Part shown: one piece after another, positions 8,835 to 15,994 of the stretch | Layout of the letters: each line of letters opens with the position of its first letter | Numbering within the stretch: the stretch's first letter is position 1 | Source: Ruminococcus flavefaciens | Lineage (GTDB): Bacteria > Bacillota > Clostridia > Oscillospirales > Ruminococcaceae | Length of the DNA stretch: 20,506 bases | NCBI GenBank assembly: GCA_902792495.1 | Contig: CADBAC010000001.1 | Coordinates: 1-20,506, forward strand | Reading direction: 5' to 3' | The notes under the pieces: generated by a model | The model's database searches: none | What the model was told of the DNA's origin: nothing | What the model saw: the letters and a program-made list of their open reading frames with translations, nothing else | Translations under genes and position numbers: made by a program

Positions 8835-11432
8835 TCAGCTTGCGGTAAGTTCACCGTTTGCGTCAAGGTCAATATCTATGACATCGCCTGCTGAGAGATT
8901 GCCGCCTATGATCCGCTTGGCAGCAATTGTCTCTACCTTGCTCTGTATGAATCTTCTAAGCGGTCTTGCACCAAATGTCGGATCGTATCCGCAGTCTACG
9001 ATGTACTGCTTTGCCTTGTCGCTGACTGTTATCTTTATGTGCTTGTCGTCAAGACGCTTCTGGAGTCCCACCAGCATAAGGTCAACAATGCTCATTATCT
9101 CGGTCTTGCTAAGCGGCTTGAAGTAGATTATCTCATCAAGACGGTTGAGGAATTCGGGTCTGAACTGTGTCTTGAGGAGGACGTCCACCTTTGCCCTTGC
9201 CTCTTCGCTTATCTCGTTGTTCTCGTCGATTCCTTCGAGGATGTATGGTGAACCGAGGTTTGATGTGAGGATTATGATAGTATTCTTGAAGTCAACAGTA
9301 CGTCCCTGAGAATCGGTGATACGTCCGTCATCAAGAACCTGAAGAAGGATGTTGAATACATCAGGGTGAGCCTTTTCTATCTCATCAAAGAGAACTACCG
9401 AATAAGGCTTTCTGCGGACTGCTTCTGTAAGCTGACCACCCTCGTCATATCCCACGTATCCGGGAGGCGCTCCTATCAGACGGCTTACAGAGAATTTCTC
9501 CATGTACTCACTCATATCTATACGGATGATATTTCTCTCGTCGTCAAAGAGTATCTCTGAAAGCGCCTTTGCCAGCTCGGTCTTACCAACACCTGTAGGT
9601 CCGAGGAAAAGGAATGAACCGATAGGTCTGTCAGGCGACTGAATACCTGCACGGGAGCGGAGTATAGCCTCGCTGACCTTTGTAACAGCTTCGTTCTGAC
9701 CGATGACACGCTTGTGGAGAAGTCCCTCCATTCCCAGTATCTTTTCCTTTTCGCCTTCCATAAGCTTTGATACAGGGATGCCTGTCCAGCGGCATACTAT
9801 CTTTGCTATCTCGTCTTCAGTAACTCTGTCACGAAGCAGTCTCTCGCCTTTCAGGTCTTCTTCTGCCTGCTTTTCAAGGCTTTCCAGTTCCTTTTTAAGC
9901 TGTGGGAGTCTGCCGTATTCAAGTTCAGCGGCCTTGTTGAAATCGTACTCACGCTTTGCCTTTTCTATCTCACCGCCGATCTGCTCCAGTTCCTCACGAA
10001 GCTTCTGAACAGCGGAAATGTCGTTCTTCTCGTTTTCCCACTTAGCCTTCATGGAGTTGAACTTCTCACGGAGTTCTGCAAGTTCCTTCTGTATCTCTTC
10101 AAGGTGTTCCTGAGAAATGCTGTCGCTTTCCTTTTTCAGAGCAGTCTCCTCTATCTGGAGCTGTATCATCTTACGGTTTATCTCGTCCAGTTCTGTTGGC
10201 ATAGAATCCATTTCTGTACGGATAGTAGCGCAGGCTTCATCTATAAGGTCGATAGCCTTATCGGGAAGGAAACGGTCGGTGATGTATCTGTTGGAGAGTG
10301 TAGCTGCTGAGATAAGGGCATTATCGCTTATCTTAACGCCGTGATATACCTCATAGCGCTCTTTAAGTCCACGGAGGATCGATATAGTATCCTCCACATT
10401 CGGCTCATCAACCATTACAGGCTGGAAACGTCTGCCGAGAGCAGGATCTTTCTCGATGTACTGGCGGTACTCGTTAAGAGTTGTAGCACCGATACAATGC
10501 AGTTCACCACGGGCAAGCATTGGTTTGAGGAGGTTGCCTGCGTCCATAGCACCGTCAGTCTTGCCTGCGCCGACGATGGTATGAAGCTCATCGATAAACA
10601 TGATTATCTGTCCGTTGCTGTTCTTCACTTCGTTGAGTACGGCTTTCAGACGCTCTTCAAATTCACCTCTGTACTTTGCACCTGCCACAAGTGCACCCAT
10701 ATCAAGGGAGAACACCTTGCGGTCTTTCAGGTTGTCAGGAACATCTCCTGCAACGATACGGAGGGCAAGTCCCTCAGCAATGGCAGTCTTACCAACACCC
10801 GGCTCACCGATGAGTACAGGGTTGTTCTTGGTCTTACGGGAAAGGATACGGATAACGTTTCTTATCTCGCTGTCACGGCCGATTACCGGGTCAAGCTTGT
10901 TCTTTCTTGCAAGTCCCACAAGTTCCTGACCGTACTTAGTGAGCACATCGTAGGTCTCCTCGGGATTCTCATTTGTAACACGGGTATTTCCACGCACTGA
11001 CATAAGAGCGCTGAGGAAGCTGTCACGGGTGATATTGAATGTCCTGAGAAGCTGTGAAACGTCTCTGTCCTTGCTTTCTATGAGTGAAAGCATGATATGC
11101 TCAACGGAAACGAACTCGTCCTTCATATTTGAAGCGATGGACTCAGCCCCTGTGAGTACACGGTCAGCCTCTGCGGAAAGTGCCATCTGAGCGCTTCTGC
11201 CGCTTCCTGTGACCTTCGGGAGCATACCTATCTTCTTATCGACCTCGGAATCGAATATATCCACATCCACGTTCATCTTCTTCAGCAGCTGAGGGATAAG
11301 TCCGTTTTCCTGCTTGAGAAGTCCTGAGAGAAGGTGTATCGGGTCGATAATGCTGTTTGACTGCATTACGGCGATGCTCTGAGCCTTTCTCACAGCGTCA
11401 ATGGATTTCTGGGTCATTTTTTCTGCATTCAT
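8835..11432 (-). CDS. clpB: ATP-dependent protein disaggregase ClpB
   Basis: 865 residues, the full length of ClpB. This is a cytosolic hexameric AAA+ machine that, with DnaK, pulls apart aggregated proteins after heat or other stress. Order: Clp N-domain with two repeats (1-145); first AAA+ ring with Walker A GEPGVGKT (209-216) and Walker B IIMFIDE (276-282); the long coiled-coil middle domain (about 405-530) that marks ClpB rather than ClpA or ClpC; second AAA+ ring with Walker A GPTGVGKT (611-618); and a C-terminal domain ending ELTAS. The start has AAAGGAGG about 8 bases upstream. It lies 56 bases after the ribbon-helix-helix gene in the same direction with no terminator between them, so the two are probably co-transcribed. 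No CIRCE element or CtsR-type direct repeat was seen near it or near the operon promoter. Confidence 0.97.
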
Positions 11433-11488: not shown

Positions 11489-12130
11489 CTATAAAATATA
11501 CCTCTGAAGCATATCCACATACTCCTTTTCCAGCTGGGGAGCATACTGCATGAACTCATCAGGAGCCGAAAAATAAGTCTGGATAGACCTGTTCAGATGT
11601 GTCAGGTAACTGCTTATAGCCTCTCCTGCCTTTTCATCGTCAAGTCCGCTTTCGAGAAGTTTGCGTGTGAAACATCCCGAAGTCAGTTCAAAGCCGTAAT
11701 CATCCCTGCCTTTAGCGTGGAGAAGTGCAGTTTCCAGCTTTGCACGGTAGACGAAAAAGCTGTTGAACAGTTCGATAAGGCTTCCGCTCTGAGTACGTAT
11801 CTGCACTCTCAGCGTGCCCAGCTTATCATCGGGGGAACGTTCAAGCTCCACCTTATAGCTGATAGTCGGGCGGTACTTATAGTCCAGTGCAGTTTTCAGC
11901 GTCATAAGCGAAGCGGAGCGCTGCTGCTGTATCTGAAAGCTGCTGCTGACCAGTTCGGAGAGCGAGGCGAATATCTCCCTCATTCTCATTTCGGGAGTAA
12001 CGCAGGACAAATGCTCGGCCAGTATCTGATTTATAAGATTCGACCTGCTTGTGCCGAGGCGGTAAGCCTGACGGTCAACGGCTTTGATGACGTCATCCAT
12101 AAGCACCAGACTGTATACACTTTTCTTCAT
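11489..12130 (-). CDS. Ribbon-helix-helix (CopG/Arc-type) DNA-binding protein with a large unassigned C-terminal region
   Basis: 213 residues. The first 45 or so (MKKSVYSLVLMDDVIKAVDR, then LGTSRSNLINQILAEHLS) fit a ribbon-helix-helix fold: a short beta strand for the DNA major groove and two helices with the turn GTSRSNLIN. The remaining 165 residues include a strand-rich stretch (about 90-125) and helices near the end, and match no family I know. It is much larger than typical RHH repressors of 45-100 residues. The ATG at 12130 has AAAGGAGG upstream. It has a consensus promoter and leads into clpB, so it may be an autoregulator of the operon or a stress regulator; that is inference from position. 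Confidence 0.72.
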   Translation of the reverse strand: MKKSVYSLVLMDDVIKAVDRQAYRLGTSRSNLINQILAEHLSCVTPEMRMREIFASLSELVSSSFQIQQQRSASLMTLKTALDYKYRPTISYKVELERSPDDKLGTLRVQIRTQSGSLIELFNSFFVYRAKLETALLHAKGRDDYGFELTSGCFTRKLLESGLDDEKAGEAISSYLTHLNRSIQTYFSAPDEFMQYAPQLEKEYVDMLQRYIL

Positions 12131-12183: not shown

Positions 12184-12237
12184 GCGGATTATATAACATT
12201 TCACGCAAGTTTCACATTGAGTTTTTGCGTTCCGTCT

Positions 12238-12269
12238 GTACTATATGTAAAAAATAGTACGTACATATA
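12238..12269. promoter_or_regulatory. Two overlapping, mutually exclusive dyads upstream of the RHH promoter
   Basis: GTACTAT (12238-12244) pairs with ATAGTAC (12254-12260). Offset within the same bases, TATATGTA (12242-12249) pairs with TACATATA (12262-12269). Both are perfect. They lie about 55-90 bases upstream of the RHH -35 and just downstream of the small-RNA terminator. A candidate operator for a dimeric repressor, not proven. Confidence 0.4.
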
Positions 12270-12331
12270 AAAAATCTATAGGCTATTCGCACAACATCGA
12301 GGGTGTGAGAGATATACTATCAGTAAAAGTA

Positions 12332-12359
12332 TAAAAAAAATCCATCCCGAAGGATGGAT
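12332..12359 (-). terminator. Intrinsic terminator of the small RNA
   Basis: On the minus strand ATCCATCC, tetraloop TTCG, GGATGGAT (12340-12359), then eight T (12333-12340, sharing one base with the stem). Nearly textbook, and it fixes the strand of the transcript because the plus-strand side has no T-tract. Confidence 0.92.
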
Positions 12360-12586
12360 GAAACGCTCCAAACGACTTTCGCCGCTTAGCACTGTGGAGC
12401 GTGCCATAGATAATAAGTTAAAACAAGTTATTGAGAATAGAAAACATGAAAAAATTACAAATGAAAGGGGTTAGTTTTATTTATTGACAAAACTATCTCT
12501 ATGGCGAGCAAGTGAATTAATACTCAGTATCAAGCACATGAGAGGGGAGGGTACTTGATACTGAATACCAATAATCTTCATTTGCT
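12332..12586 (-). ncRNA. Structured small RNA of about 255 nt, family not recognised
   Basis: A promoter (12593-12621) and a UUCG terminator (12332-12359) bracket a minus-strand transcript with no convincing gene. The 5' part forms a hairpin of 14 pairs with one G-U (12554-12567 with 12521-12534). Its loop reads CCUCCCCUCUC in RNA and is complementary to Shine-Dalgarno sequences. The middle (about 12410-12515) is A/U-rich and looks unstructured. The 3' part has an 8-bp stem (12395-12402 with 12363-12370), an 8-nt bulge CAGUGCUA, then a 6-bp stem capped by a GAAA tetraloop (12377-12380), followed at once by the terminator. I could not match it to 6S, SRP, RNase P, tmRNA or a known riboswitch. 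The loop suggests a trans-acting antisense regulator of translation. Transcript ends are predicted, not measured. Confidence 0.75.
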
Positions 12587-12592
12587 GTATTT

Positions 12593-12621
12593 ATTATAGT
12601 TCAAAACCAAGTTTTTTGCAA
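12593..12621 (-). promoter_or_regulatory. Promoter of the small RNA
   Basis: TTGCAA (12616-12621), a 17-base spacer, and TATAAT (12593-12598) on the minus strand. The predicted start is near 12586. Confidence 0.75.
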
Positions 12622-12777
12622 GCTACATTTGTAATCTAAACTGCACTTTTGTATACTTTTCATCCCTTTTCCCGATTTTTTCAGGTTAACTTTTTATTAA
12701 TTAGTATTAGCTTATTACTAATTAACATTATATATAGATTCTCAATTATTTTTTCATTTCCGACATACACAAAATAA
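12622..12777. other. AT-rich gap with a perfect 10-bp dyad
   Basis: TTAATTAGTA (12697-12706) pairs with TACTAATTAA (12716-12725) around a 9-base loop. The rest is AT-rich with no gene or promoter I can support. The dyad lies upstream of the small-RNA promoter and downstream of the lipoprotein terminator. Confidence 0.45.
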
Positions 12778-12815
12778 AAACACAGCGCTTCTTTTTTGTC
12801 AGAAACGCTGTGTTT
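12778..12815 (-). terminator. Terminator of the carbohydrate-binding lipoprotein gene
   Basis: AAACACAGCG (12778-12787) pairs with CGCTGTGTTT (12806-12815), with extra TTCT/AGAA pairing inside the loop. The minus-strand tail is TTTTTATTTT. It sits 33 bases after the stop codon. Confidence 0.8.
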
Positions 12816-12847
12816 AATATTACCGTTTGTAAAATCAATGTAATAAT

Positions 12848-14197
12848 TTACTGCCCGACATGAAATTCATTTTGTCCGTCATTAACAGTGAATGTTTCAC
12901 TGCCGTTTCCGTTGATGACTGTATAGAAGCTGCTGCCTGCACTTATCTCAGGAGCAAGCATCATTACGCTGCGGAAATTGTTGTGCGGCTGGAGCACAGC
13001 CATCTGCGAGTCGTTCAGCACCAGTTCAGCTGTCGAACCGGCTTCATATGTATCGCCGTAGTCAATAACGATAAAGGGATTTTTCGACATAGTAGGAACA
13101 GACACACGATTTCCTGCGGCATAGAGATAGCCCTTCGTATAGTTGAAAGCGCCGGCGGAGTAAACCGAACTCTTCTCTTCCTTATTACCGCCGTAAGCGA
13201 TAGTATGGCCGCCGTTGATATTGATAGTGCCCTTGGACTTCATACCGTTCGTGCCGCCTCTGATGAGGAGGTCACCGTCATTGATCGTTATGTCATCGTG
13301 AGCAAAAATTCCCGACTTGACAGAATCGATCTCATATCTGCCGCCCTCGATTATAACATCGTCGTCGCTGGAAATTCCGTGAGCGTTGTTTGAGTAGATG
13401 TACAATTCTCCCCCGCCCCTTATTCTCAGAGTATCGTTGGAGAATATAACGCCGTCGTTGACATCATCCTTAGCGCCATCCCTGAGAACCGAAATAGTAC
13501 CGTCCATAAGCTCGATAGTGCACTTCTTGGCATCGTTTATCAGTATAGCAGGGCCAGAGGAATTTGCAATACCTGCTCCGTTGAGGATAAGCTTTACCTT
13601 TTCTTCCGTTGCTGTATCAACAAATATCTGGCCGTCATCGGTATTTCCCGAGATAAGGTAGTCGCCGCCTGCGGAAATAATCACCCTTGAGCCGTCGACT
13701 GCGGCATTCGCACCGACTACAGACGGACTTCCGCCCATTACTATCTCGGCAGTATATTCGCTTTCCGTCTGCACTTCTACAGGAGTCTGAACCTCGTTTG
13801 CACCTGCCTCGGCATAGTTTTCTCCGCCCGAGGACGAGGAGTTACCGCCGCCGGAAGATGAACCGCCGCCCGATGAACTTCCGCCTGACTTAGAGTCCGA
13901 CTTGGCTGTAGTGGTGGAAGCTGTGGTAGTAGCGCCTTTTTTGGCGGATGTAGTGGTTGTTTTTTCCTTTGCCTTTGTTGTGGTCTTTTTCACGGATGCC
14001 GCCTCCGTCTCCTCTGTAGTTGCTTCCTCAGTCGTCTCCTCAGCTGTTGTGGTCTTCTTTGACTTTTCTGTTGTCTCCTCCGTTACTGCGGAACTGCCGT
14101 TATCGCTTTTCTTTTTTGCCTCATCTTTTCCGCAGGCGCATGATGTCAGCATAAGCGTAAATGCTGCTGCCATCGCCATAAATCTTCTGCTGTCCAT
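12848..14197 (-). CDS. Secreted lipoprotein with Cthe_2159-type carbohydrate-binding beta-helix domain
   Basis: 449 residues. A lipoprotein signal ends at LTSC, making Cys20 the lipidation site. Residues 24 to about 130 are a low-complexity linker of Thr/Glu/Lys then Gly/Ser. The folded part (about 145-445) has the repeated strand pattern of the Cthe_2159 family (Pfam PF14262): DYLISGNTDDGQIFVD, VKLILNGAGIANSSGPAI, then short DDDVIIEGG / HDDITINDG / KGTININGG turns. The founding Clostridium thermocellum protein binds pectic polymers and calcium, so a role in holding plant cell-wall sugars or building surface material is likely. The start at 14197 has AGGAGA upstream. It follows the VTC/DUF4956 pair but is separated from it by a terminator. 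Such proteins often occur with VTC, DUF4956 and CotH-type genes; no CotH gene is in this window. Confidence 0.85.
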   Translation of the reverse strand: MDSRRFMAMAAAFTLMLTSCACGKDEAKKKSDNGSSAVTEETTEKSKKTTTAEETTEEATTEETEAASVKKTTTKAKEKTTTTSAKKGATTTASTTTAKSDSKSGGSSSGGGSSSGGGNSSSSGGENYAEAGANEVQTPVEVQTESEYTAEIVMGGSPSVVGANAAVDGSRVIISAGGDYLISGNTDDGQIFVDTATEEKVKLILNGAGIANSSGPAILINDAKKCTIELMDGTISVLRDGAKDDVNDGVIFSNDTLRIRGGGELYIYSNNAHGISSDDDVIIEGGRYEIDSVKSGIFAHDDITINDGDLLIRGGTNGMKSKGTININGGHTIAYGGNKEEKSSVYSAGAFNYTKGYLYAAGNRVSVPTMSKNPFIVIDYGDTYEAGSTAELVLNDSQMAVLQPHNNFRSVMMLAPEISAGSSFYTVINGNGSETFTVNDGQNEFHVGQ

Positions 14198-14222
14198 AAT
14201 TCATCTCTCCTTCTATAAATTT

Positions 14223-14228
14223 ATTATA
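14223..14228 (-). promoter_or_regulatory. -10 box of a probable promoter for the lipoprotein gene
   Basis: TATAAT on the minus strand, about 25 bases before the ATG. No good -35 is present at 16-18 bases, so it may need an activator. A small dyad GCAGAT-AAA-ATCTGC lies just upstream, near 14255-14270. Confidence 0.4.
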
Positions 14229-14269
14229 TCCCCGAACACAGGCGAACTGCCCGGCAGATAAAATCTGCA

Positions 14270-14317
14270 ATAAAACAAAAATTGCCGAACACATTTTCTG
14301 AGAATATGCTCGGCAAT
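14270..14317 (-). terminator. Terminator of the VTC-DUF4956 operon
   Basis: ATTGCCGA (minus strand) pairs with TCGGCAAT (arms 14281-14288 and 14310-14317), followed by TTTTTGTTTTA. It begins 13 bases after the DUF4956 stop codon. Confidence 0.82.
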
Positions 14318-14330
14318 CCTGGATGTTGTA

Positions 14331-15071
14331 TTAGTTTTCGTAGATCTTGTCGTCGTACTTGAAGAAAACAAGATTGATTGTCATATTGCCGTTAAGGGCA
14401 CGAAGCTCGTCAACGAACTTCTTCTGGTCGATATTCTCAAGAACATCAACGCTGTAGATAAGCTCAAACAGTGTACCGAAATTGGTAGTCTTGACTCTTC
14501 TGAGCTTGTGGAATGTTGTGTATCTGTTGAGTACAGGCTCAAATACGCCCTGATAATCAAGGTTCTCAGGAATAGCTATCTTGAGAGTCATATGTCTCTT
14601 CTTGCATCCGCCGAAGTCAACCTCGCTCATTACGAAGAGGACAGCGCCGAGAATTATGAAGAACACGATAGCGAAACCGATGAATCCCATTCCGCAGGCA
14701 ACACCCATTGCCATTGCGAAGAAGATGTAGGAAATATCCTTCGGGTCGCCTGCAACGCTTCTGAATCGTACCAGTGCAAGAGTACCTGCAAGGCTGATAG
14801 CACCGATCTGTGTATTTACCAGAAGGAGTATCAGTGTAACGATGGTAGGAAGCATTACCATTGACATTACGTAGCTCTGTGAGTAGCCTTCTTTTCTGTG
14901 AGTTAAGATATAGATAAGGCTTATCAGTGTTCCCAGTACCACAGCAGAAATAAGACAGAATAAGAATTCTCCTGCTTTAAGGTCGGGAAGAACTGTGCTT
15001 GAACTGTTTATTACAGAATCAACATCATTGTACCTTGATAAAACATTGCCGAAAAAACCATTTGGAAACAT
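14331..15071 (-). CDS. DUF4956 integral membrane protein
   Basis: 246 residues. Hydrophobic segments lie at about 35-57, 67-86, 89-101 and 115-149, followed by a soluble C-terminal domain of about 95 residues. The signature ALVRFRSVAGDPKDISYIFFAM (split: ALVRFRSV at 99-106, AGDPKDIS at 107-114) between membrane helices is the conserved core of DUF4956. Its biochemical role is not known. It recurrently sits beside VTC-type polyphosphate polymerases, as here, which suggests a membrane partner or transport function for that enzyme. The ATG is 5 bases after the VTC stop, so the two genes are one transcript. The ribosome site AGGAG is unusually far from the ATG (about 12 bases), which fits coupled translation. 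Confidence 0.85.
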   Translation of the reverse strand: MFPNGFFGNVLSRYNDVDSVINSSSTVLPDLKAGEFLFCLISAVVLGTLISLIYILTHRKEGYSQSYVMSMVMLPTIVTLILLLVNTQIGAISLAGTLALVRFRSVAGDPKDISYIFFAMAMGVACGMGFIGFAIVFFIILGAVLFVMSEVDFGGCKKRHMTLKIAIPENLDYQGVFEPVLNRYTTFHKLRRVKTTNFGTLFELIYSVDVLENIDQKKFVDELRALNGNMTINLVFFKYDDKIYEN

Positions 15072-15076
15072 AAAAA

Positions 15077-15883
15077 TTACACGCTCCTGTTCATAATACT
15101 GTTATTTACCATTGAGATCCCTGATATATATATGCGGCCCGAACTGTTTGAACGTCCTGCGCTCTCCACCTGACTTTTTACAAAGTTCTGGTAAGCTCTG
15201 CCGTACTTGGAGAAGCTGGTCTTGTAGATCTCCAGCTCTGAAAGCTTGTTTACGAGCCAATCTGGTATAGCATTTGAAACCTTTACCTCCATGAGTCTCT
15301 GGTCTGCACCTATGATGTAATTGCCGTAGCTTTCATAGTTAAGGCCGAGGTCATAGCGGCGCTCAGTGATCTTTCTGTCAAAGGTAAGTCTGAAATCGCT
15401 GTCGTATTTACCGAAGAAAGCCTCACGCTGATAGCTGATATACTGCTTCGGAGCGATGGGGTAGTTATTCAGGAAAACATCCAGTTCTCTGAAAACCTGT
15501 TCGGTTATGTACTTGTTCATTTCAGGCTTTGAACGGTCTCTGAAGTAAGCATCGGACTCAGCGAGAGTCATCTGTACTCTTCTTTTTGTCACTATTCCTC
15601 CGATCTTCTTTTTGATCTCGAGGAATACCATATCGTCCGGTGCAGCAGGTGAGTAGTAGCTGCGAAGTCTGATCTTCTCCTTGTAGTAAGGCTTTGACAG
15701 TGATTCTCTTATAAGGTAATCATCGGGAGTATCGTAGTATATATTGTATATACCATACTCCTTGCCGCCAATGCAATACTTATCGGGATTCATGTATTCA
15801 TTAATGACCTCCATAAGGCCGTGATACTGATCCATATTCAGGAGAAATTTTATTTCTTTACGAGCAAAAGTATTAATTGCCAT
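15077..15883 (-). CDS. VTC-domain polyphosphate polymerase-like protein
   Basis: 268 residues from the ATG at 15883, chosen because TGGAGG lies 5 bases upstream. The frame could extend to 15994, but that start would overlap the likely promoter. The VTC (triphosphate tunnel) fold is recognisable by its charged tunnel residues: ARKEIKF (8-13), KIRLR (70-74), EIKKK (89-93), TKRRV (99-103), RLTFDR (165-170), LMEVK (197-201) and FSKYGRAY (224-231). In yeast Vtc4 equivalent Lys/Arg/Glu residues make polyphosphate from ATP; in bacteria the product and its location are less certain. The tail after residue 240 is Ser/Asn-rich. It is the first gene of an operon with the DUF4956 membrane protein. The key charged residues all appear to be present, so it is probably active. 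Confidence 0.87.
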   Translation of the reverse strand: MAINTFARKEIKFLLNMDQYHGLMEVINEYMNPDKYCIGGKEYGIYNIYYDTPDDYLIRESLSKPYYKEKIRLRSYYSPAAPDDMVFLEIKKKIGGIVTKRRVQMTLAESDAYFRDRSKPEMNKYITEQVFRELDVFLNNYPIAPKQYISYQREAFFGKYDSDFRLTFDRKITERRYDLGLNYESYGNYIIGADQRLMEVKVSNAIPDWLVNKLSELEIYKTSFSKYGRAYQNFVKSQVESAGRSNSSGRIYISGISMVNNSIMNRSV

Positions 15884-15965
15884 AAGCGCCTCCACGGCGG
15901 ATTTTTCCGACGGGAGTTTCACACTCCTTTCGTATCGTTTGAATATATTATATATTAATATTCTT

Positions 15966-15994
15966 AAAATAGTCTTAATACACAACACGTTCAA
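15966..15994 (-). promoter_or_regulatory. Possible promoter of the VTC operon
   Basis: TTGAAC (15989-15994), 17 bases, TATTTT (15966-15971) on the minus strand. A second TATAAT lies at 15947-15952 but lacks a matching -35. A GGAGT...ACTCC dyad lies in the leader. Low confidence because the region is very AT-rich. Confidence 0.35.

Follow-up and report, generated by a model that had tools for sequence, protein, structure and literature searches.

What lies between the gene of a Cthe_2159-type carbohydrate-binding protein and clpB in Ruminococcus flavefaciens? In the stretch of DNA analysed here (20,506 nt, hereafter the window), the former gene is annotated at 12848-14197 and clpB at 8835-11432, both on the minus strand. 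Between them, the same strand encodes a 213-aa protein (11489-12130) and, upstream of it, a sequence that a previous sequence-only reading proposed to be an independent regulatory RNA exposing an anti-Shine-Dalgarno (SD) loop. The 213-aa protein was named RHH in that reading and we keep the label here; no Pfam family matched it at E 0.001.

The RNA gene occupies positions 12587-12332 of the minus strand (~255 nt) and comprises a promoter, four helices, and a terminator. The −10 hexamer TATAAT (12593-12598), recognised from the window sequence and its relatives, is separated by a 17-nt spacer from the −35 hexamer TTGCAA (12616-12621). From this spacing, transcription is expected to start near 12586, and the 3′ end should fall within the T-tract of the intrinsic terminator (12332-12359), which consists of a stem (12359-12340), a UUCG loop, and the T-tract. 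These elements, as well as the A/U-rich middle and the bulged hairpin described below, were all recovered where the sequence-only reading had placed them. TATAAT precedes the RNA in 106 of the 108 loci found in the genus (see below), and at least 81 of these 106 have a TTG-type −35 hexamer at matching spacing, as counted among the 12 commonest hexamers listed. A run of at least five Ts occurs within 110 nt past the last stem in 107 of the 108, while the terminator stems themselves vary freely in the alignment. At the sequence level the RNA has its own promoter and intrinsic terminator, independent of its neighbours, as expected of a trans-acting sRNA, and the two signals suggest that it is transcribed. 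In many aligned relatives, TTGCAA or a near variant also ends the spacer, directly 5′ of TATAAT; this composite and conserved arrangement may be a regulator site. A further, strong minus-strand hairpin of 15 pairs followed by a T-tract is found at 12778-12815, between the 3′ end of the Cthe_2159-type gene and the RNA promoter. A search of the 20.5-kb window for tRNA and tmRNA genes found none.

The minus strand of the region folds to −79.3 kcal/mol, against −45.7 ± 3.8 for shuffled sequences (z −8.8), and none of 200 shuffles was as stable. Helix P1 (12508-12585) closes the 5′ domain by pairing GCA (12585-12583) with UGC (12510-12508) and UGAA (12580-12577) with UUCA (12516-12513). It encloses hairpin P2 (12517-12571), the 13-nt loop of which (CCUCCCCUCUCAU, 12538-12550) has the invariant core CCCUCUC. 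The sequence-only reading was right about the existence of this first hairpin but gave it 14 bp, while about 21 pairs are formed. The long-range helix P3 (12403-12505) joins GCCAUAGA (12505-12498) to UCUAUGGC (12410-12403) and encloses the A/U-rich middle; P1 and P3 are additions to the earlier description, from which P3 was missing. Within P3 lie a variable linker (12471-12497, 1.05 bits per column), which served as an internal control, and the unpaired conserved middle (12419-12470), opening with CCCCUUUCAUUUGUAAUUUUUUCAUGUUUUCUAUUCUCAAUAACUU and holding CCCUUUCAU (12469-12461) and UUUUUUCAU (12454-12446). The 3′ hairpin P4 (12364-12401) is composed of an outer stem CGCUCC/GGAGCG, an inner stem within 12385-12372, and the asymmetric bulge ACAGUGCUAA (12386-12395), with core AGUGCU. 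Bulge and GAAA cap are as previously described in the window, but the cap is not conserved in the alignment of relatives.

The RNA was searched for in other genomes by sequence and by structure. Using blastn, the 269-base region matched 34 of 60 relatives, corresponding to 34 of the 36 same-genus genomes (its own included) and none of the 24 from other families. One of the blastn matches, of 26 nt in genome G003, is probably not the RNA, since the covariance model finds none in that genome. The first covariance model, built from 29 sequences, detected the RNA in 108 of 125 genomes of the genus and in 65 of the 68 good ones (≥90% complete and ≤5% contaminated). Each positive genome gave one match, except G121, with a split match, and G090, with a second copy at a contig end. 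The two G090 copies lie on contigs C45 and C15 (L118 and L109) in an assembly with 7% contamination, and the cut second copy may be foreign.

Outside the genus, none of 293 genomes of other genera drawn from the order matched the covariance model; the draw comprised 295 genomes, and the two that matched belong to the same genus. A broader model, built from 97 sequences and run on 297 genomes from the family, returned five same-genus genomes and four weak matches (E 0.006 to 0.09). The weak matches outside the genus inspected in these searches (L110-L112 and three of these four, L365, L366, and L368) were rejected, as the loop and bulge motifs are not found in the required arrangement. Because the filters of these large searches were strict and few candidates were retained for each genome, a very diverged relative outside the genus could have escaped them. 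A loop pattern with 17 fixed letters, run on named species genomes, hit 60 stretches, 58 of which belong to Ruminococcus or to records equivalent to the genus genomes; the matches in Pseudomonas putida and Haloferula luteola are evident chance hits. Phage and plasmid records gave no match.

The 17 genus genomes without the RNA were searched again with looser filters, and nothing convincing emerged. RHH was found in six of them. Two of these (G016 and G137) show about 900 nt upstream of RHH, with the RHH promoter but no RNA. In G132 the visible sequence upstream of RHH is limited to 187 nt, which do not contain the RNA 3′ end, while in G080 and G076 the contig ends before the RNA site is reached. 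In G139 (L214), the 115 visible nt before RHH begin with an apparent RNA terminator tail; here the RNA may have been lost to the contig break, and the value of 108 out of 125 may thus be low. Judging from these searches, the RNA is very probably genus-specific and kept by most sequenced Ruminococcus species.

The structure was then evaluated for compensatory changes. A set of 46 pairs was read from the window sequence and counted on a structure-blind MAFFT alignment of 97 of the 108 loci (90 distinct sequences); the 11 others (L089, L095, L097, L098, and L102-L108) were left out as cut, split, or weak matches. Standard pairs fill 89.8% of the cells, against 83.2 ± 0.2% with shuffling and 31-36% with slid partners. 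Changes on both sides were found in 42 of the 46 pairs, for a total of 279 cells (shuffled 87 ± 8). None of 500 shuffles, which ignore the relatedness of the sequences, reached any of the five covariation measures. The slid controls tend to be beaten simply because the structure was taken from one of the aligned sequences, and the many double changes are stronger evidence than this contrast. The clearest covariation is in the outer stem of P4 (both-side changes in 6/6 pairs, 94.6% of cells paired), where one pair occurs as GC in 39 sequences, AU in 23, CG in 15, and GU in eight. P1 (7/7 pairs, 93.2%) and P2 (20/21 pairs, 89.2%) are also well supported; P3 is the weakest helix, with both-side changes in 7/8 pairs, 83.5% of cells paired, and one pair broken in 28 of 89 sequences.

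The unpaired segments are more conserved than the P2 and P4 stems. Conservation reaches 1.83 bits per column in the P2 loop, 1.78 in the bulge, and 1.61 in the middle, compared to 0.99-1.19 for the strands of P2 and P4, 1.31 and 0.99 for those of P3, and 1.55 for the 5′ strand of P1. Of the loop and bulge sequences for which a conservation check had been proposed, the invariant parts are the cores: CCCTCTC and AGTGCT are each present in all 97 aligned RNAs. A conserved C-rich unpaired loop on a stable stem is a feature of LhrC-like, C-rich RNAs directed against ribosome binding sites. The 22 divergent loci that we inspected retain the CCCTCTC core, and four of them (L105-L108) carry AGTGCC instead of AGTGCT. 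By eye, the middle is mostly replaced in about ten of the 22, and several have inserted hairpins. Five loci (L095, L099, L102, L103, and L104) have an extra hairpin-like insert just 3′ of the first hairpin, with loop core and bulge intact, and L095 has another one inside the middle.

Could the region encode a short peptide? An AUG in the middle opens the frame MFSILNNLF in 51, or MFSILNNFF in 17, of the 86 RNAs holding ATGTTTTC, and the plus strand of the window offers MKKLQMKG. A small mRNA or a dual-function RNA for either peptide has nonetheless a very slight probability in our view: 94 of the 97 RNAs lack any SD-like string (AGGAG, GGAGG, or GAGGT), the third codon positions of the MFSILNNLF frame are about as invariant as the others (by eye), and interruptions of the plus-strand frame were seen, again by eye, in no fewer than four relatives (L021, L023, L027, and L029). 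The region had been described as about 255 bases without a convincing gene, and these results agree.

The Rfam 15 covariance search of the 20.5-kb window returned no family at gathering score. Raising the threshold to E 10 for positions 12200-12850 gave nine matches, none of which came near its gathering score; the best one, on the RNA strand, had E 0.072. This supports the claim of an undescribed family, and a literature search with a scope mostly outside subscription journals yielded no account of the RNA among the matches listed. A single match in all but two of the 108 genomes, and near-universality in the good genomes of the genus, are what housekeeping RNAs show; 6S RNA (RF00013) in particular resembles the new RNA in its one copy per genome and comparable length. 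RF00013 does not match at the RNA locus, though, and matches separate loci in 17 of 24 genus genomes (27 of 40 genomes overall were over its cut-off, and the incomplete genome of the window gave none). Moreover, we take the fold of the new RNA to be unlike that of 6S RNA. With the lack of Rfam support just described, and with 6S RNA as the housekeeping RNA searched for across the genus, we consider it extremely improbable that the RNA is a known housekeeping RNA in diverged form. The resemblance to Gut-1 RNA (RF01706) is limited to a weak match that overlaps the region at its 3′ end; this match is on the plus strand and, at 19.8 bits, far below the gathering score of 50.

The RNA is almost certainly real and the representative of a new, genus-wide family. 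The arrangement of the neighbouring genes bears on whether it is also independent. The next gene downstream, on the same strand, is RHH or ClpB in 97 of the 108 loci (contig end in three, otherwise in eight), and the next one upstream is Cthe_2159-type or DUF4956 in 91 (contig end in five, different in 12). In the window, the genes at 12848-15994 encode a VTC domain protein, a DUF4956 protein, and the Cthe_2159-type protein, and this neighbourhood is upstream of the RNA in most relatives. The RHH-labelled protein travels with clpB and the RNA in spite of its missing Pfam match.

Such a neighbourhood would suit a leader, attenuator, or thermometer acting in cis on the RHH-clpB operon. A leader or riboswitch-like element of clpB should, however, always lie upstream of it in the same orientation, and eight of the 105 judgeable loci are exceptions. 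Six loci (L079, L080, L085, L086, L098, and L108) have no RHH or ClpB match within 4-5 kb downstream of the RNA, and in L084 ClpB is 2.4 kb away. In L062 (positions 1501-1730, genome G133) the whole RNA gene, promoter and terminator included, is inverted between its usual two neighbours. The occurrence of the RNA without RHH and clpB nearby, or inverted, makes a clpB leader or attenuator unlikely. The T run after the last stem, found in all loci but one, also argues against it, as do a promoter-like TTGACA-17-TATCAT between the RNA terminator and RHH, a similar CTTGACAAATT..TATAAT element in most relatives, and the free change of the terminator stems (alternative pairings were covered unsystematically). 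The cis-acting explanation is already largely refuted, and we consider it highly improbable. The possible stress link suggested in the sequence-only reading on the basis of clpB keeps in its favour a strongly conserved neighbourhood, but the RNA persists without RHH and clpB in several genomes and was once inverted. The claim of an independent non-coding RNA gained support from the genus-wide model matches, the covariation, the promoter and terminator, the inverted locus, and the absence of coding signs.

We surveyed pairing in one near-complete genome (G035), on 1.2 Mb of its 3.6-Mb main contig, where a simple home-made script predicted 902 start regions with an SD. For the middle, the mean local pairing score at starts was as high in one of 300 dinucleotide shuffles; weaker measures were the start-minus-internal difference (9/300), the top-1% count (27/300), and the top-0.1% count (75/300). 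Complements of the 7-mers of the middle were enriched 5.6-fold between −25 and +17 (shuffles 4.0 ± 0.7; 28 of 1,000 as high). The enrichment of the middle is modest. The control linker also had a high pairing score (mean reached by 3/200 shuffles, top-1% count by 5/200), which indicates that base composition contributes, even if its 7-mer complements were unremarkable (1.4-fold, 501/1,000 shuffles as high). Complements of the loop 7-mers were 4.2-fold enriched at the 902 starts without any excess over shuffles (470/1,000 as high), and the same was true for the loop pairing score (205/300 as high); the bulge gave 0.8-fold. The idea of an anti-SD loop is partly borne out: the C-rich core is invariant, but its complementarity to the 902 starts does not exceed that of shuffles. 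Pairing is more strongly indicated for the A/U-rich middle, a segment that had been passed over as filler.

Inspection of the RNA led us to define, post hoc, a pyrimidine module YYYUYUCAU, the complement of AUGARARRR. The window RNA contains it three times, at 12546-12538 in the P2 loop and at 12469-12461 and 12454-12446 in the middle, a number reached by none of 3,000 shuffles; for four other RNAs, the module count was reached by 0, 5, 5, and 235 of 3,000 shuffles. Among the 97 aligned RNAs, 72 have three modules, two have four, 12 have two, eight have one, and three have none. Redundant CU-rich modules in unpaired parts are a second feature shared with LhrC-like RNAs. In G035, AUGARARRR lies exactly on 81 of the 902 starts, and 107 occurrences fall within −25 to +17 (5.8 expected from the genome). 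By a crude rule, 54 of the 81 corresponding proteins have a hydrophobic N-terminus, compared to 277 of the 821 others. Start codons often stand in an AUGAAA context anyway, and this is how MKK-type signal peptides open regardless. Given the post hoc choice of the motif and the frequency of MKK starts, these numbers show what the RNA would hit, and not that it was tuned by selection.

On these sequence grounds our preferred explanation, held with moderate confidence, is that an autonomous non-coding RNA regulates translation starts in trans by antisense pairing. Drifting yet rigid stems would hold up the three unpaired modules, CCCUCUCAU in the P2 loop and the two in the middle, which would bind the start codon, together with the purines next to it, in mRNAs beginning AUGARARRR. 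The targets would be largely secreted and membrane proteins with hydrophobic N-termini, and pairing would block the initiation of their translation. Hfq is encoded in all of the 30 genomes tested, which makes an Hfq-assisted sRNA possible, and this protein could assist the pairing. The AGUGCU bulge, beside the terminator, probably serves in protein contact or in folding. A bolder version, which we regard as improbable, has the RNA as a genus-wide master antisense RNA of the secretome, its three near-identical anti-start-codon modules recognising AUG-AAA-AAA rather than the SD. If this were true, one RNA would determine how Ruminococcus translates its secreted and surface proteins as a class, among them parts of the cellulosome.

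The same data could also be read as a real RNA family acting mainly by binding a protein, such as Hfq, another RNA-binding protein, or a polymerase or ribosome factor, which we deem possible if rather unlikely. The CCCUCUC loop and the AGUGCU bulge would then be the contacts, with mRNA pairing secondary or absent. Coherently with protein binding, of these two most invariant elements the loop has complements no more enriched at starts than those of shuffles, and the bulge has complements with no enrichment at all. In addition, divergent members in which most of the middle is gone still have the loop and AGUGC, and Hfq is encoded in every genome tested. Protein binding leaves unexplained, however, the long conserved unpaired middle of most members and its complementarity to starts.

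Among known RNAs, the closest parallel to the antisense reading is LhrC of Listeria monocytogenes. According to PMC4132741, LhrC exposes UCCC at three sites, distributed over two loops and a single-stranded stretch, and these pair with a G-rich sequence before the lapB start codon; RNAIII, RsaE, and SprD of Staphylococcus aureus are named there as UCCC users. The likeness lies in several redundant CU-rich sites placed in loops and a single-stranded stretch. The Ruminococcus RNA differs in having no Rfam similarity and one copy per genome, where LhrC has five. It further differs in its modules, whose UCAU ends match the start codon itself, in a much longer conserved unpaired middle, and in the second invariant element AGUGCU. 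With RNAIII, RsaE, and SprD it shares a C-rich unpaired motif in a low-GC Gram-positive bacterium; it matches none of them by Rfam, and its loop does not pair with the surveyed starts above shuffles.

This RNA is kept by most species of a plant-fibre-degrading rumen genus, and its unpaired segments are better conserved than the stems. A covariance model is now available for it, as is a locus in strains that can be cultured, R. flavefaciens FD-1 for example, and the regulation of secreted-protein start codons as a class is a testable idea that it raises.

The target search suggested in the sequence-only reading had a mixed outcome: the middle is modestly enriched at starts, as seen above, but no target conserved across the genus was found. 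In G035, plsY presents a 13-nt match to the loop. PlsY was rejected as a loop target after 30 genomes were searched, two of which gave a distant paralogue only: among the 28 orthologues compared, GTGAGAGGGGAGG is kept in three. The others mostly read GAAAGAGGAGG or GAGCGGGGAGG, apparently (by eye) the last codons of the reading frame upstream of plsY.

A 25-nt pattern complementary to the RNA, searched with up to three mismatches in the 125 genus genomes, found about 15 sites outside the RNA gene, against one for the same pattern read backwards. Seven of these sites, with zero to two mismatches, precede a DUF3789 gene (G008, G066, G105, G112, G118, G127, and G004), and in G008 the match extends to 34 nt at 88% identity. 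As a general target DUF3789 was discarded, given that 30 other loci in 28 genomes have no comparable match (best score 34.6); it is a possible target within one subclade only. Twenty secondary matches of the middle were also inspected; on a loose reading, about 13 are antisense to a start codon or to the ~60 nt before it, a count biased by the hand-picking of the 20 from the upper matches listed. In G032, a DUF3789-like gene that scores below the Pfam cut-off is matched in a different register (L223). At L220, L226, and L227, all from one subclade, the leader of the small DUF3789 protein gene is almost perfectly antisense to the RNA middle.
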